Assembly (NCBI GenBank): GCA_025355765.1
Contig: JANXZB010000102.1
Span: forward strand, 1 to 64,000
Origin: Actinomycetes bacterium
Lineage (GTDB): Bacteria; Actinomycetota; Actinomycetes; Nanopelagicales; Nanopelagicaceae
Direction of reading: 5' to 3'
Length of the DNA: 64,000 bases
Below, piece by piece: positions 2,168-9,203 of the stretch. Each line of letters opens with the position of its first letter. Positions within the stretch are counted from its first letter, which is position 1. The notes under the pieces are model-generated. The model was given only the letters and a program-made list of their open reading frames with translations, made no database searches and was not told the origin of the DNA. The position numbers and the translations under genes are program-made.

Positions 2168-2495
2168 CTCTCATTCAGCCCAGGAGCCCATCTCTGATCC
2201 GGCTCCTGTCATCAGGCGTGCCCAAGTCAGCCAAGTCGGACCCCATGAAGTCTTAGCCGATGGATCCACCCCAGTGGAGTTCACATTCCGAGGTAGGCGC
2301 TTTCGTATCCATAGCGTTCTTTCCAGATGGTGCGAGGCAGGGGGGTGGTGGAACCGCATCAGCGATGGCATCTATCGCCCCGACGATGGCGCGCGCGCAC
2401 TCTGGAGAGTCGAGGCAGCTCCCATCGGAGCCCTTACTACCTTTGAGATCGAACGCGATGAGATCACTGGCACTTGGCGTATCACGGTTCTTTGA
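2157..2495 (+). CDS. DUF6504 family protein of the translesion-synthesis cassette
   Basis: A small 112-residue protein. The C-terminal half has FRGRRFRIHSVLSRWCEAGGWW, then ALWRVEAA and TGTWRITVL. This matches as I recall it the pattern of DUF6504 proteins found beside dnaE2 and Y-family polymerase genes in actinobacteria. No enzymatic function is known to me; an accessory role in mutagenic repair is inferred from its position. The only in-frame ATG ahead of the conserved part lies in the middle of the LexA palindrome, with no Shine-Dalgarno nearby, which suggests leaderless translation. The stop TGA overlaps the next start (TGATG). Confidence 0.7.
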   Translation: MFENSHSAQEPISDPAPVIRRAQVSQVGPHEVLADGSTPVEFTFRGRRFRIHSVLSRWCEAGGWWNRISDGIYRPDDGARALWRVEAAPIGALTTFEIERDEITGTWRITVL

Positions 2496-5400
2496 TGAGC
2501 ACATTCGTTCATTTACGTGCATGCAGCGCCTACTCACTTAAATACGGCACTACCCAACCGCGTGACCTGGTTGCCCGTGCACGTGAGCATGAGATGCCGG
2601 CTCTAGCACTTACTGATCGCGATGGCTTGGCTGGTGCAATTCGTTTTGCGCAGAGTTGTGTCGATTACGGGGTTGCCCCAATTATCGGAATCGACCTTGC
2701 AATGGAAACGCCACGTGCACTTTCTAGAGATACAAAGACTCTTTCGCGCATCACTCTCTTGGCGCACGGTGATGGCGGTTGGCGCTCGCTCACTCGATTG
2801 CTGACTTCTTTGAACACATATAAGACACTCGAGCCAAGTCGTGCTCCCGTTCTTACTCTGGATTTCCTTCAGCAATTTAGCGAGTACAGCACGAATCTTC
2901 TGGCACTGCATGGCCCTGAATCACCAGTTGGCCTGGCTATTGCGTCGCATCGCAGCGATCTTGCTCTTGAATGTTTTGCGCAGACGCGCGAACTCTTTGC
3001 CGATAATGCAATCGAATGTGTCTCGCACCTGGTTGCAGGGGCCGGACCTCGATCTACTGCCCATGCTGGGCGATCATTGATTTTCGCACGCGATCATAAG
3101 ATCGCCGCGGTCATCACCAATGCGGTTCGTATGCGCGAACGTGAGGACGGCCCTATCGCCGATATCTTGGATTCTGCGCGGCAGCTAGTTCCCTTGCATA
3201 CTCGCCACGTCGAACGGAAAAACGCAGAAGCATTCCTTAAATCAAGTGCCGAGATGGTTGCCCTTGCCGAAGAGATTTCGCGGGCAGCGGGGGAGCGCAC
3301 CGCACGCGAGCTTCTTGCCACAACGCATGAATGGGCAGAACGGGCCGTTCTTTCTCCAACCCGTGATATTGGTCTAGGCGGTATTCATCTCCCCGAACCG
3401 CACATCGTCGGTGCCGATTCTTCCTTGCAGATGCAATCTATATTGCGCACTCGTTCAGAGGCTGGCCTGCATTGGCGCTACAGCGATAGCGCCACGATTG
3501 CGCAGGCGCGTCAACGTCTCGACGACGAACTCGCAACGGTTGCAACACTGGGTTACGAGTCTTATTTCCTCACCGTTGCCGACATCACGGATATGGCCCG
3601 CGATGTTGGCATCCGTGTGGCAGCGCGTGGCAGCGGTGCAGGATCGCTCATATGTCATCTTCTTGGGATCTCCGGAGTCGATCCATTGCGACATGGGCTC
3701 TTGATGGAGCGCTTCTGCTCACCCCTTCGCCTGGCTCTTCCTGATATCGATATTGATGTCGAATCCGCTCGTCGATTGGAAATCTATGATTTAGTTTTCA
3801 AACGGTATGGCGACCCTAAGTGGAGTACGCCCGGCAACACTTCCCGCTGTGCCACTGTTGCGATGGTTGATACATACCGAGCTCGCCATGCCATCAGAGA
3901 CACTGGCGCAGCCCTTGGACTTCCCTTTGTTGAGATCGATCTCATAGCCAAATCTCTTCCGCATATCCGCGCTCGCAATATTTCACAGGCACTGGCAAGC
4001 CTTCCCGAACTGCGCGGCCTCAATCTCAAAAGCCCTTTAACCGCAATGACCATCTCTCTGGCAGAACGACTCGATGGTCTTCCGCGCCACTTGGCGATGC
4101 ATCCTTGCGCTGTTGTTCTATCCGACGGAGCTTTTCTTGATCGCGCACCTTTGCGCATCAATGCAGGTGGTTATCCGATGGTGGAATTCGACAAAGATGA
4201 TGTCGAGGCGGTTGGTCTTCTCAAACTCGACATACTTGGGGTTCGTATGCAATCCACTATTGCCTATGAGATCTCTGAAATCGAACGGACCGAACAGGCT
4301 GTCGACATCGACGCCATTGCATTGGATGACCAGCCAACCTTCGATCTCATCGCCTCAACCCGGACTCTAGGAATTTTTCAAGTTGAAAGCCCGGGTCAGC
4401 GCGAACTTGTCGGAAAGCTCGCTCCGCAAACTTTCACCGACTTAATTATCGACATCTCCTTATTTCGGCCAGGGCCGGTGAAGAGCGACATGATTTCACC
4501 CTTTCTCCGTGCTCGCCACGGTTGGAGCCCGGCCCAGATCATCCATCCTGACCTCTATGACGTCTTGCACGAAACCGAAGGTGTCGTCGTTTTTCATGAA
4601 CAGGTGATCCAGATTATTGCGATCCTTACGGGAGTCTCTCTTGCGCAGGCGGATGAGAAAAGACGAGCGCTAGGTGATAGGGAAGGACAACAGGAAGTCT
4701 GCGATTGGTTTTATCCCACAGCGTTGGCTCGCGGGTATGAGATCCATACAGTGGAAGCCGTGTGGGATATTTTGCGCGCCTTCGCATCCTTTGGCTTCTG
4801 CAAAGCACACGCGGCAGCATTTGCGCTTCCGACCTACCAATCGGCCTGGCTCAAAGCCCACTATCCCGCTGCCTTTATTGCCGGGGTCCTGACACACGAC
4901 CCTGGCATGTATCCCAAACGCTTGATCCTTGATGATGCACGTCAGGCAGGTATTGGGATTGCCCCGATAGATGTCAATCGATCTTCTTCTACTTATCGTG
5001 TCGAGCGAGTTGATCCGAGTACTGCCCGAGTGCCAGCAGTGGCCTTTGACGGTAAGAGCACTGGGCGCCCTCTTACCTTGCCTGATGCGCGAGGGTATGC
5101 AATACGGGTATCACTTGCTGATTTATCGGGGATCAGTAGCGATGAGGTGGAGTCGATAATCGCCGGGCAGCCATATCTGGATCTCTCTGACTTTCATTCT
5201 CGATCGGGTGCATCTTTTCCGACAACAGAGAAATTAATCTTGGTCGGAGCCTTTGACGAGATACATGAAATTGACCAAGGAAGAATCAATCGTCGGGATC
5301 TGCTTCTGCATTTGAGCGACCTCCACCGATCTCCAGTCCGATCCCAAACTCGATCATCATTGGGTGGATCGCAACTCAACTTCGGCTTCACTCCACCCGC

Positions 5401-5860
5401 CCTTATCTCAAGCGGTCTTCCAGACCTGGACGCCAGCGAAAAAGTGCGTCACGAGATGAATCATTTAGGGATGGATGTCTCCCGCCATCTTCTGGAGTTT
5501 TATGCAGACTTTCTCAATGAGATTGGGGCGGTGCGATCCACAGACCTCCTTGCTCAAAGATCAGGTTCGTCGGTACTGGTTGCTGGCGTGAAGGTCGCCA
5601 GACAGAGCCCCCCAGTGCGCTCAGGCAAGCGCGTTATCTTTCTGACTATCGACGATGGATACGGCTGCAATGACGCCACTTTCTTCGACGATGCCCAACG
5701 CAATTACGCTGATGTCCTTTTTAGCTCGTGGTTATTTTTGGTACGCGGAGAAGTCCGCCGCACTGGCCCAAGGGGTGTCTCACTGCGCGCAACTGGGGCA
5801 TGGGACCTCCGTGCTGCTTACGAAAAGCATCTGCAAAGTAGAAGTACGCTCGTAATATGA
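2495..5860 (+). CDS. dnaE2: Error-prone DNA polymerase III alpha subunit (DnaE2/ImuC type)
   Basis: A 1121-residue C-family polymerase, distinct from the replicative copy at 30023. The order is an N-terminal PHP domain, the palm with PDIDID (416-421) and the third acidic residue in LLKLDILG (about 579), the finger region with FGFCKAHAAAFAL, a putative beta-clamp motif QLNFGF (about 960) and a C-terminal OB fold. The PHP metal site is altered: HLRACSAYSL where the replicative enzyme has HLHVHTEYSM, and LTDRDG in place of TDHG, so phosphoesterase activity is unlikely. It lies between the DUF6504 gene and dinB with overlapping codons on both sides, under the LexA box, so it should be DNA-damage induced and act in translesion synthesis. 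Confidence 0.85.
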   Translation: MSTFVHLRACSAYSLKYGTTQPRDLVARAREHEMPALALTDRDGLAGAIRFAQSCVDYGVAPIIGIDLAMETPRALSRDTKTLSRITLLAHGDGGWRSLTRLLTSLNTYKTLEPSRAPVLTLDFLQQFSEYSTNLLALHGPESPVGLAIASHRSDLALECFAQTRELFADNAIECVSHLVAGAGPRSTAHAGRSLIFARDHKIAAVITNAVRMREREDGPIADILDSARQLVPLHTRHVERKNAEAFLKSSAEMVALAEEISRAAGERTARELLATTHEWAERAVLSPTRDIGLGGIHLPEPHIVGADSSLQMQSILRTRSEAGLHWRYSDSATIAQARQRLDDELATVATLGYESYFLTVADITDMARDVGIRVAARGSGAGSLICHLLGISGVDPLRHGLLMERFCSPLRLALPDIDIDVESARRLEIYDLVFKRYGDPKWSTPGNTSRCATVAMVDTYRARHAIRDTGAALGLPFVEIDLIAKSLPHIRARNISQALASLPELRGLNLKSPLTAMTISLAERLDGLPRHLAMHPCAVVLSDGAFLDRAPLRINAGGYPMVEFDKDDVEAVGLLKLDILGVRMQSTIAYEISEIERTEQAVDIDAIALDDQPTFDLIASTRTLGIFQVESPGQRELVGKLAPQTFTDLIIDISLFRPGPVKSDMISPFLRARHGWSPAQIIHPDLYDVLHETEGVVVFHEQVIQIIAILTGVSLAQADEKRRALGDREGQQEVCDWFYPTALARGYEIHTVEAVWDILRAFASFGFCKAHAAAFALPTYQSAWLKAHYPAAFIAGVLTHDPGMYPKRLILDDARQAGIGIAPIDVNRSSSTYRVERVDPSTARVPAVAFDGKSTGRPLTLPDARGYAIRVSLADLSGISSDEVESIIAGQPYLDLSDFHSRSGASFPTTEKLILVGAFDEIHEIDQGRINRRDLLLHLSDLHRSPVRSQTRSSLGGSQLNFGFTPPALISSGLPDLDASEKVRHEMNHLGMDVSRHLLEFYADFLNEIGAVRSTDLLAQRSGSSVLVAGVKVARQSPPVRSGKRVIFLTIDDGYGCNDATFFDDAQRNYADVLFSSWLFLVRGEVRRTGPRGVSLRATGAWDLRAAYEKHLQSRSTLVI

Positions 5861-7026
5861 GTACCGCGACCATTCTCCACGTCGACATGGACGCTTTCTA
5901 TGCCTCCGTTGCCGAACGCGATGATCCTTCCCTCAAAGGCAAGGCAGTGGTTGTCGGAGCCGGAGCACGCGGTGTTGTTCTGTCTGCAAATTACCAAGCG
6001 CGCACTTTTGGAATCCATGCTGCAATGCCAGTGGGAAGGGCCCAACGCATGGCACCGCACGCAATTTTTGTCACGCCAGATCACTCTCGCTATAGCGAAG
6101 TCTCTGCACGCATAATGGAAATCTTCCATTCATACACCCCTCATGTAGAGCCACTCTCACTTGATGAGGCCTTTCTCGATGTCACCGGCTCAAAGCGTTT
6201 GCTCGGAACGGGACGCCAGATTGCTACTGCGATTCGTGCAAAGGTGGAGGCGCAAGAAGGCATCACATGTTCTGTAGGGATTGCGCCCTCAAAGTTCATT
6301 GCCAAACTTGCATCGAGCCGGTGTAAACCTGATGGAATGCTCGAAATCCCCGCAGATCGCATCCTGAATTTTCTCCACCCATTGCCCGTCTCTGCTATTT
6401 GGGGAGTGGGGCCAAAAACAACGGAAGCACTCGAACGTTTGGGCCTGCGAACTGTTGAAGAAGTTGCGCACACGTCCCGCGCGACTTTGATTCGTGCGTT
6501 AGGCGAAGCCGGCGGGTCCTCTCTTTATGAATTGGCTTGGGGACGCGATTACCGAGACGTTGTTTCGGATGAACCTGATAAGAGCATTAGCGCAGCAGAA
6601 ACGTTTGCCCGAGATATTGATGATCAAGAAATAATTTTGCGAGAGTTCTTGCGCCTCAGCGAAAAAGCTACCCATCGACTGCGTGAAAGAGAACTTTTTG
6701 CCAAGACGATTTCAATAAAAGTGCGCTATGCAGATTTCACAACGATCAACCGCTCCAAGACATTGCCGCTGGCTATCGATAGCACGCACGAAACGTATGA
6801 AGTGGTGAAGAATCTCTTTCTAGCCCTGCACCTCGATCGGGCACGCCTGCGCCTTGTAGGAGTTGGCCTGGAAAATCTCCAATCCCAAGCCTCCGAACAG
6901 CTGGTTCTGGGTTCCCGAGAGCGAGGTTGGAGAGAGGCCGAGGGAGCCATTGACCGCGCCCAGGCTCGTTTTGGCCCCGGAAGTGTCCGGCCTGCGCGTT
7001 TGATGCGTAAAGATGGTGAGAAATAG
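5857..7026 (+). CDS. dinB: DNA polymerase IV (Y family)
   Basis: A 389-residue translesion polymerase with intact catalytic residues: D10 in VDMDAFYASV and D103/E104 in LSLDEAFLDV, plus the helix-hairpin-helix stretch IWGVGPKTTEALERLG and a little-finger domain. EQLVLG near 347-352 resembles a beta-clamp binding motif. The start ATG overlaps the dnaE2 stop (ATGA). In the usual actinobacterial ImuA'-ImuB-DnaE2 mutasome the Y-family partner ImuB has lost its catalytic residues; here the partner looks active and no ImuA' is present. It is likely SOS-induced as the last gene of the cassette. Confidence 0.95.
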   Translation: MSTATILHVDMDAFYASVAERDDPSLKGKAVVVGAGARGVVLSANYQARTFGIHAAMPVGRAQRMAPHAIFVTPDHSRYSEVSARIMEIFHSYTPHVEPLSLDEAFLDVTGSKRLLGTGRQIATAIRAKVEAQEGITCSVGIAPSKFIAKLASSRCKPDGMLEIPADRILNFLHPLPVSAIWGVGPKTTEALERLGLRTVEEVAHTSRATLIRALGEAGGSSLYELAWGRDYRDVVSDEPDKSISAAETFARDIDDQEIILREFLRLSEKATHRLRERELFAKTISIKVRYADFTTINRSKTLPLAIDSTHETYEVVKNLFLALHLDRARLRLVGVGLENLQSQASEQLVLGSRERGWREAEGAIDRAQARFGPGSVRPARLMRKDGEK

Positions 7027-7122
7027 AACAGCCGGCATGTGGAAAATTTCAGTGTGCATTGCGAGGGTAGATGTTCTATTGTGGGCTCATCACAGTCAAG
7101 ATTGTGAGCAAAGGAGGGTGAA

Positions 7123-7479
7123 ATGCCGCTTTCAGAACACGAGCGCAAACTCCTTGCCCAAATGGAGGAAGCCCTCTCCGCTGATGATCCACACCTAGTA
7201 TCCACTCTGACCGGTACCCGCCTCTATCCCGGGCGTAACAGAGTTCTCCTTGGTGTTGCCCTGACGGTCATTGGTATTGCCACAATATTTGCCGGCTTGA
7301 TCTCCAAGACAACACCGGTTGGAATTTTGGGATTCTTGATTTCCCTCGGCGGGGTCACCTTGGCAATTTCGGGACTATCTGGGGTCGGCGCGTTGCGTCC
7401 ACCCACCAAGCGCGCTCGCAAGGGTGGACTCAACACCCGTCTAGAAGACCGTTGGGAACGGCGTAACTACGATCAGTAA
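7123..7479 (+). CDS. DUF3040 membrane protein
   Basis: A 118-residue protein. An N-terminal charged helix (MPLSEHERKLLAQMEEAL) is typical of DUF3040, followed by two membrane segments (about 41-60 and 66-86) and a basic C-terminal tail. In actinobacteria this gene commonly lies just upstream of mraZ and the division cluster, as here; its function is unknown. A strong AAAGGAGGG ribosome site precedes the ATG by a few bases. A terminator follows, so it is transcribed separately from mraZ. Confidence 0.85.
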   Translation: MPLSEHERKLLAQMEEALSADDPHLVSTLTGTRLYPGRNRVLLGVALTVIGIATIFAGLISKTTPVGILGFLISLGGVTLAISGLSGVGALRPPTKRARKGGLNTRLEDRWERRNYDQ

Positions 7480-7498
7480 GAAAGAGCTCATGTGCTGC

Positions 7499-7519
7499 GC
7501 CCCTGATGGGGCTTTTTTT
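7499..7519 (+). terminator. Rho-independent terminator after the DUF3040 gene
   Basis: GCCCC (7499-7503), loop TGAT, GGGGC (7508-7512), then seven T (7513-7519). Confidence 0.85.
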
Positions 7520-7530
7520 CTGCCCTTTCC

Positions 7531-7620
7531 TGGGTTCAGGGTGGGTAAAGGTGGGCGGCAGGGGAGAAAAATGGTTCAGGGTGGTTGAAAAGGGAGAGAA
7601 ATGGAGTAAAGTGGAGTAAA
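7531..7620 (+). promoter_or_regulatory. Array of nine 10-bp-phased TGG/GGG boxes (likely MraZ sites) with the mraZ promoter
   Basis: Nine consecutive 10-base units starting at 7531, 7541 and so on to 7611 all have G at their third and fourth positions. They begin TGGG, GTGG, GTGG, GGGG, ATGG, GTGG, AGGG, ATGG, GTGG; the last two read ATGGAGTAAA and GTGGAGTAAA. MraZ proteins are known to bind short TGGG or AAAGTG-type direct repeats about one helical turn apart in their own promoter. A promoter lies inside the array: TTGAAA (7585-7590), 16 bp, TAAAGT (7607-7612). Confidence 0.65.
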
Positions 7621-7648
7621 GCACGCGGACCTGGGGAAGGGGACCATC

Positions 7649-8080
7649 ATGTTTCTTGGCACCCACGAACCACGTCTGGATGAGAAGGGCCGTCTTATCC
7701 TGCCGGCCAAATTCCGTGAGGAACTAGCGAGTGGCCTGGTCATCACAAAGGGTCAAGAGCGTTGCCTCTACGTTTTTCCCTCGGCTGAATTTGCCTCCAT
7801 TACGCAGACTTTGAGAGCGGCACCTGTCACCGCCAAATCTGCCCGCGACTACATGCGCGTGATGTTCGCGGGCGCCCACGATGAAATTCCCGACCGCCAA
7901 GGTCGAATCACAATCCCACAGGGACTTCGCACCTACGCCTCACTTGGAAAAGAGTGCGTCGTCATTGGTGCAAATACGCGAGTGGAAATTTGGGATGCGC
8001 ACTCATGGCGTGAATACCTCGCCGATCGCGAAAAGGGCTTTGCCGAAGTGTCAGAGGAGGTATTCCCCGGACTCTTCTAG
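7649..8080 (+). CDS. mraZ: Transcriptional regulator MraZ
   Basis: A 143-residue protein with two SpoVT/AbrB-like repeats, each carrying the DxxGR signature: DEKGRLILP (11-19) and DRQGRITIP (82-90). MraZ forms ring-shaped oligomers and represses or tunes the division and cell-wall operon from repeats in its own promoter; those repeats are seen immediately upstream. The ATG follows the purine-rich stretch GGGGAAGGGG (7633-7642). A 178-base gap holding a structured RNA separates it from rsmH. Confidence 0.95.
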
Positions 8081-8104
8081 ATCAATCGAGTGGATCTCTC
8101 TTGT

Positions 8105-8178
8105 GGCCACCGCCGACCTTATGAATCGGCACCCCTTCCCCGGTGCCGACCAAATAGTTCCGTCGGCCGGCGGTGACC
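8105..8178 (+). ncRNA. mraW RNA motif, structured leader of rsmH
   Basis: The outer stem pairs 8105-8118 with 8165-8178 (14 bp with two A/C mismatches). The inner stem is perfect: TCGGCACC (8126-8133) with GGTGCCGA (8142-8149), closed by the loop CCTTCCCC (8134-8141). A hairpin with a CUUCCCC loop ahead of mraW/rsmH in actinobacteria is, from memory, the published mraW RNA motif. The loop is complementary to the mraZ ribosome site (7633-7640) and, with one G-U pair, to the rsmH site GGGGGAG (8249-8255). Function is unproven. Confidence 0.7.
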
Positions 8179-8258
8179 AGAGGAGAGAAGTTCGATAAAG
8201 AAAAGCGTTAAGGCACATTTGGGATTACTGCAGATTCTATAAAGTTAAGGGGGAGTGG

Positions 8259-9203
8259 ATGGCTCAGCACGTTTCTGTTTTGCTTGATCGTTGCATTGAA
8301 TTGCTTTCCCCCGCAATTGAAAGAAGCAAAAATCCCGTTGTCGTTGATGCAACTTTGGGCCTAGGCGGACATACCGAAGCGCTCCTAAACAAATTTCCGA
8401 AACTAATCGTGATCGGAATTGACCGGGACAAAGATGCAATCGCCCTTGCCACTTCGCGCCTAGAGATGTTCGGCGAGAGATTCAAAAGCGTGCACGCCGT
8501 GTATGACCAGATTCAAGCGTGCATCGAGAAGTTTGGTTTTTCGAAGGTGGATGGCATCCTCTTCGATCTCGGAGTTTCCTCCATGCAATTGGATGAATCC
8601 GAGCGCGGTTTTTCTTACTCAAACGATGCCCCCCTTGATATGCGCATGGACAGAAGTCAGGGACGAACCGCCGGAGACATCATCAATTCTGGCGATCGCG
8701 AGGAACTCATCATGATCCTGCGAAAGTACGGAGAAGAAAGATTTGCTCCACGCATCGTTGATGCAATTATTCGCCGCCGCGAAATTTCCACTATGGACTC
8801 AACAGCGGAGTTAGCAGAACTGGTCAAGGAGAGTATTCCTGCGGCTACTCGCCGAACTGGTGGCAATCCGGCCAAGCGGACTTTCCAAGCCCTTCGCATC
8901 GCCGTAAATGATGAGCTGGGTGCGCTGACAAGGGCGATTCCAGCATCCCTTGACTCATTAGTTGTTGGAGGCCGTCTAGTTGTCATGTCATTTCAATCCC
9001 TTGAAGATCGCATTGTCAAGGAGTTCTTTATTGCGGCCAGTGAGTCCAAAACGCCTCGCGAACTTCCAGTAGAAATCCCGGAACTTGCCGCCAAATTCAT
9101 GCTGGTGGTTCGAGGCAAAGAGACTCCATCGGATGCTGAACTTGTCCAGAATCCTCGGTCTGCATCTGTTCGGCTGCGCGCGATTGAACGGGTGGCCGCT
9201 TAA
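8259..9203 (+). CDS. rsmH: 16S rRNA (cytosine(1402)-N(4))-methyltransferase
   Basis: A 314-residue SAM-dependent methyltransferase that modifies C1402 in the ribosomal P site. The SAM site is VVVDATLGLGGHTEALL (27-43), followed by IGIDRDKDAIALA and the family motif DGILFDLGVSSMQLDESERGF. The C-terminal MSFQSLEDRIVKEFF motif is present, so it is full length. The ribosome site AAGGGGGAG lies a few bases before ATG and may be masked by the mraW RNA loop. The stop overlaps the ftsL start (TAATG). Confidence 0.97.
   Translation: MAQHVSVLLDRCIELLSPAIERSKNPVVVDATLGLGGHTEALLNKFPKLIVIGIDRDKDAIALATSRLEMFGERFKSVHAVYDQIQACIEKFGFSKVDGILFDLGVSSMQLDESERGFSYSNDAPLDMRMDRSQGRTAGDIINSGDREELIMILRKYGEERFAPRIVDAIIRRREISTMDSTAELAELVKESIPAATRRTGGNPAKRTFQALRIAVNDELGALTRAIPASLDSLVVGGRLVVMSFQSLEDRIVKEFFIAASESKTPRELPVEIPELAAKFMLVVRGKETPSDAELVQNPRSASVRLRAIERVAA

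Follow-up and report, generated by a model that had tools for sequence, protein, structure and literature searches.

What does a run of nine evenly spaced GG boxes do directly in front of mraZ, and is there anything special about the number nine? Few bacterial regulators are as widespread as MraZ, whose gene stands first in the division cluster. The boxes were found in a stretch of 64,000 nucleotides (the window, which was analysed as a whole) from a 1.70-Mb draft assembly whose named relatives include Candidatus Planktophila and Candidatus Nanopelagicaceae. They lie immediately 5' of mraZ at an exact spacing of 10 bp, with GG at 7533, 7543, 7553, 7563, 7573, 7583, 7593, 7603 and 7613 (that is, 7533 + 10n, ending at 7614). 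As the initial annotation had described them, units 1, 4 and 7 read GGG in the GG frame and the remaining six units TGG. We propose that the array is very probably an expanded MraZ auto-operator heading the division and cell wall (dcw) cluster, with a conserved core and a variable upstream module.

The boxes, all on the forward strand, are numbered 1 to 9 from the 5' end, box 9 being k=0. The outer boxes 1–3 (k=-8 to -6; 7531..7554) read TGGG at 7531, 7542 and 7552, with steps of 11 and 10 by TGG and of exactly 10 by GG, unit 1 having an alternative reading as TGGG one base earlier (7531); in the sequence and in most family members they are in phase. Outer box 4 (k=-5; 7561..7564) is a GGGG run without T. 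Box 5 (k=-4; 7572..7574) is a TGG just 5' of the -35 hexamer. The last four boxes were read from the sequence and from the family promoters: box 6 (k=-3; 7582..7584) is a TGG fused to the -35 hexamer, box 7 (k=-2; 7592..7594) a GGG and box 8 (k=-1; 7602..7604) a TGG within the promoter spacer, and box 9 (k=0; 7612..7614) a TGG whose T is the final base of the -10 hexamer. Units 8 and 9 (7602–7621) form a perfect 10-bp duplicate, TGGAGTAAAG twice, which also creates a second -10-like TAAAGC; among the relatives viewed, only G013 (with one change) and G015 have the same duplication.

The promoter that had been read as embedded in the last units, TTGAAA (7585..7590, forward strand) and TAAAGT (7607..7612, forward strand) separated by 16 nt, is indeed there and is the only sigma-70-like match in 7400–7700. 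The array overlaps this predicted promoter, boxes 6–9 covering it and boxes 1–5 lying upstream of the -35 hexamer. The gene that directly follows, on the forward strand (7649..8080, 143 aa), encodes the putative binder and is a Pfam MraZ (PF02381, E 5.2e-40; solved MraZ chains, E about 3e-22), in agreement with the position first given to the array. It is followed on the same strand by the next gene of the division cluster, rsmH/mraW (8259..9203; PF01795, E 2.6e-108). On the 5' side, the upstream neighbour is a DUF3040 gene (7123–7479), after which a terminator-like hairpin (7499..7512, forward strand) is found with a T-run to about 7519; the array therefore probably begins a new transcription unit. 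No RNA family was detected in 7000–8400 at Rfam gathering scores. Further upstream, at 2474–7026, a large reading frame resembling an error-prone DNA polymerase III alpha subunit (DnaE2 type, by reading only) runs straight into a gene for a dinB-like polymerase with Pfam IMS domains, both lying just ahead of the division cluster.

Such a periodicity is not expected by chance. With periods 5 to 21 considered on both strands, these nine boxes form the longest phased series of GG in the window, and the next longest is a run of six at period 20 within the same array. We performed the comparison with shuffled sequence that the initial annotation had called for. In 20,000 dinucleotide-preserving shuffles of the intergenic region (7480–7648), the maximum run was 8 and nine was never reached, and the maximum was 7 in 20,000 such shuffles of 7526–7626. 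Whole-window shuffles (n=60) gave at most a run of 5 on either strand. At the scale of the 1.70-Mb assembly, a pattern of six GG boxes at 10-bp steps matches the mraZ promoter alone, with four overlapping matches. A search of the genome with three TGG gave 14 matches, among which a candidate second array (an overlapping pair at C53:33062-33094) was dropped as chance, being inside a long reading frame that, judged by reading, resembles saccharopine dehydrogenase.

We then compared the mraZ promoters of the family Nanopelagicaceae, to which the window was assigned from its named relatives. A total of 187 upstream stretches were assembled, of which 86 + 80 were at family level and 21 came from the rest of the class; leaving out three that were too short (G020, G101 and L077) and 23 duplicates gave 140 family and 21 class promoters. 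The 86 were drawn from 184 family genomes with a match, and the 80 named loci were assigned to the family by an MraZ identity of 85–93% and not by taxonomy. When aligned on the promoter, all 140 distinct family promoters possess the five promoter boxes (k=-4 to 0); because the anchor pattern itself includes GG from k=-3 to 0, the perfect scores of these four boxes are in part built in, while k=-4 and the positions further upstream lie outside it. The phasing is thus kept in the relatives, and this check did not refute the initial annotation.

Upstream of these five boxes, GG is found in phase in 78% (k=-5), 80% (k=-6) and 52% (k=-7) of the 140 promoters. Over these three positions, the 136 promoters with enough room have a mean of 2.12 in-phase GG out of 3, vs. 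0.76 after shuffling (0 of 300 shuffles reach the observed value); when each genus is represented by a single genome (16 of these have enough room), the mean is 1.69 vs. 0.65 (0 of 2,000). Information content is about 1.0–1.7 bits in the GG columns at k=-5 and -6, vs. 0.05–0.7 bits in most flanking spacer columns. When 23 family genomes were searched entirely with a seven-box pattern, matches were found in 20 of them, and 34 of the 35 matches are mraZ promoters, judged by position and sequence, the exception being a simple tandem repeat in G018.

The number of boxes is variable. Strict runs of five, six, seven, eight and nine boxes were counted in 22, 12, 35, 64 and 7 of the 140 family promoters, respectively, with a mode of 8; nine boxes are found in the source genome and in six other promoters. 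Within its own genus (20 genomes), runs range from 5 to 9, again with a mode of 8, and among representatives of each genus (n=17), eight have a run of 5, three of 7, five of 8 and one of 9. Nine, to which special significance had been given, is neither unique nor fixed, but the top of a family range of 5–9. The 30-bp rhythm of GGG units is literally present in the window but it is not conserved: of the 140 promoters, the window's own is the only one with this G/T pattern.

Two minor observations concern the records of this comparison. In G020, mraZ begins at two contig ends (the end of C3 and the start of C81, loci L254 and L011), with starts and leaders that differ between the two; this suggests that the bin is mixed or that the gene has a second copy. 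In addition, L103, L105, L108, L113, L116 and others are titled Bifidobacterium breve or Streptomycetaceae and encode an MraZ 87–90% identical to that of the window, with the same promoter type where viewed; these titles look mislabelled.

The family promoters are best read as an operator in two parts, a conserved module of five boxes covering the promoter and a variable upstream module. In the inner boxes, the GG are exactly 10 bp apart. In the outer boxes of the relatives, TGG most often starts 1–2 nt early: at k=-7, 50 starts are at -2, 18 at -1 and 8 at 0, and at k=-6, 42 are at -2, 28 at -1 and 16 at 0. Because these outer boxes are G-runs (TGGGG), their GG also stays on the 10-bp phase, so that the protein could read either register. 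Steps of 11–12 bp where the modules join would agree either with an operator re-phased on the 10.5-bp helix or with two modules that are bound separately. A strict 10-bp spacing from the first box to the last is therefore not the rule in the family; in the window, the early TGG concerns box 1 alone (TGGG at 7531).

Outside the family, the arrays are shorter or placed differently. The 21 promoters sampled from other families of the class, whose anchors are weaker (15–21 of 22 letters), have runs of 3–8. They resemble the window in their GTGGAGTGAAGTGGAGTACAGTGG-like boxes over a TTGAC-16-TA promoter, but their boxes extend downstream, whereas those of the window's family extend upstream; a box at k=+1 is present in 90% of these promoters vs. 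11% of the 140 family promoters. For the phylum, we used 28 of 115 matched genomes, namely those that had loci, minus the source genome of the window and G039, which the class sample already included. Three of the 28 loci belong to the class, with runs of 3, 4 and 6. Outside the class, 24 of 25 loci have runs of 2–4, mostly 3–4, with some doubtful start codons, in line with the three or so repeats that the initial annotation gives for known operators; the remaining locus has a run of 5 that is not box-like in appearance. The simplest reading is that the operator was shifted and lengthened upstream in Nanopelagicaceae. In the actinobacterial family f36 (L204–L207, L210, L211, L214, L215 and L220), an array of 3 or 4 boxes is separated from mraZ by about 247 bp, which points to a long leader, as far as the predicted start codons are right.

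The type of operator is already known. Eraso et al. reportedly described in 2014, as the MraZ boxes of Escherichia coli, three TGGG-type direct repeats with a 10-bp period before mraZ, which are like those of the window in type, period and place but three instead of nine. According to the accessible text of PMC7761207, the E. coli repeats sit downstream of the -10 hexamer, whereas most boxes of the window cover the promoter or lie 5' of it. The same text proposes, for Burkholderia cenocepacia, four 7-nt repeats with 3-nt spacers within a fragment that MraZ binds in EMSA; the 10-bp period is common to both arrays, but these four repeats, vs. nine in the window, lie 3' of the -10 hexamer. In Mollicutes, the site is given as (AAAGTGKN3)3 in the part available of PMC5282649, which relays Fisunov 2016: direct repeats with a 10-bp unit, a GTG/TGG core and an A-rich flank as in the window, but with three core repeats vs. 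nine. What is new here is a number of boxes about twice the usual one, the upstream extension and the family range of 5–9. Among the titles, abstracts and passages that we covered in a mostly open-access literature, we found no report of more than four MraZ boxes or of a Nanopelagicaceae operator.

From its sequence features, the whole array is very probably an MraZ operator. It consists of direct repeats with a TGG/GTG core at a 10-bp period, is located in the mraZ/dcw promoter, and is conserved in orthologous promoters (140/140 at k=-4, and likewise for the anchor boxes, partly by construction), next to a gene for a cognate MraZ (Pfam E 5.2e-40). Nine boxes here, and 5–9 in the family, exceed the three to four repeats published, which are a usual and not a defining number. 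The MraZ of the window is identical to a solved MraZ at 53 of 129 aligned residues and keeps arginines 15 and 86, one per half; residue 15 is important for DNA binding in the E. coli protein. Throughout the family, phase and the five promoter-covering boxes are kept in spite of diverging spacers, and on these grounds MraZ probably uses the outer boxes as well. Against this, a strict run of only five in 22/140 promoters and in 8/17 representatives of genera means that the outer module is not indispensable, and box 4 of the window is without T.

A single MraZ ring would read several boxes: the oligomer would contact one box after another along the same face of the DNA and obstruct RNA polymerase, and mraZ and the genes behind it would thereby be repressed. 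The upstream module (boxes 1–4 here) would probably seat additional MraZ subunits, or else a second ring, and this extra MraZ would tighten or steepen autorepression. Graded or steeper control through the outer boxes, as the initial annotation had also imagined, is a tentative idea, somewhat less probable than its opposite. From the portions available, octameric rings are described in PMC7761207 and PMC5282649, and repression of its cluster by MraZ is described in Mycoplasma genitalium, and cited for E. coli, in PMC8475190. The modal number of eight family boxes might then match one box per subunit of the octamer, with the promoter wrapped once at about 80 bp per turn, but we give this little credence. 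If true, the promoter would be wrapped like a small bacterial nucleosome and not bound linearly by part of a ring, and five-box lineages would be only partly wrapped.

Other explanations have to be weighed, the most serious being that the five promoter boxes alone are the operator and that boxes 1–4 are decayed or low-affinity copies of a past 10-bp tandem duplication. The presence of the core boxes in 140/140 promoters beside variable outer boxes, the 22 promoters with a strict run of only five, and the perfect duplicate of units 8 and 9, which shows that such a duplication is possible, all agree with this explanation. However, decay would blur phase and spacers alike, whereas the outer spacers have diverged with the GG phase kept, relative to shuffles, with all sequences as well as with one per genus; we thus hold it to be unlikely. 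The upstream boxes could also let MraZ activate from above the -35 hexamer instead of repressing, since boxes 1–5 lie there, and raised FtsZ accompanied MraZ overexpression in Mycoplasma gallisepticum according to the available part of PMC8475190. But the same part presents MraZ as a repressor in M. genitalium and, as cited, in E. coli, and the core boxes cover both promoter hexamers, which makes activation improbable.

Two further explanations dispense with MraZ at some or all of the boxes. The outer boxes might serve another regulator, such as MtrA, which binds the Dietzia mraZ promoter (PMC9602371, as far as its text was accessible), or DNA curvature from phased A-runs, AAAA following several boxes. 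The outer boxes nevertheless have the same GG core and phase as the inner ones, and AAAA is far less regular than GG, being found in 7, 28, 40 and 19 of 136 promoters in the spacers after k=-7, -6, -5 and -4, respectively; neither role seems at all probable. The G-rich strand might instead form a promoter G-quadruplex (G4), a reading invited by the accessible part of PMC11796246, which reports a G4 in PmraZ of Staphylococcus aureus as well as motifs of this kind in further bacteria, and by the canonical motifs at 7532–7555 and 7539–7564 of the window. This is the least credible explanation of all: the canonical motif (G3+N1-7 x4) is found in only 40/140 family and 1/21 class promoters, while the phased core is in 140/140, so that the boxes, and not the G4, are the conserved feature. 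Moreover, G4 folding gives no obvious reason for a 10-bp phase, and TGGG-type MraZ direct repeats would yield G4 motifs as a by-product.

If the array is an MraZ operator as proposed, its variation may bear on division control in these small freshwater actinobacteria. The fixed five-box core and its naturally graded upstream extension (0–4 boxes) offer a ready series for studying affinity, cooperativity and dose response.
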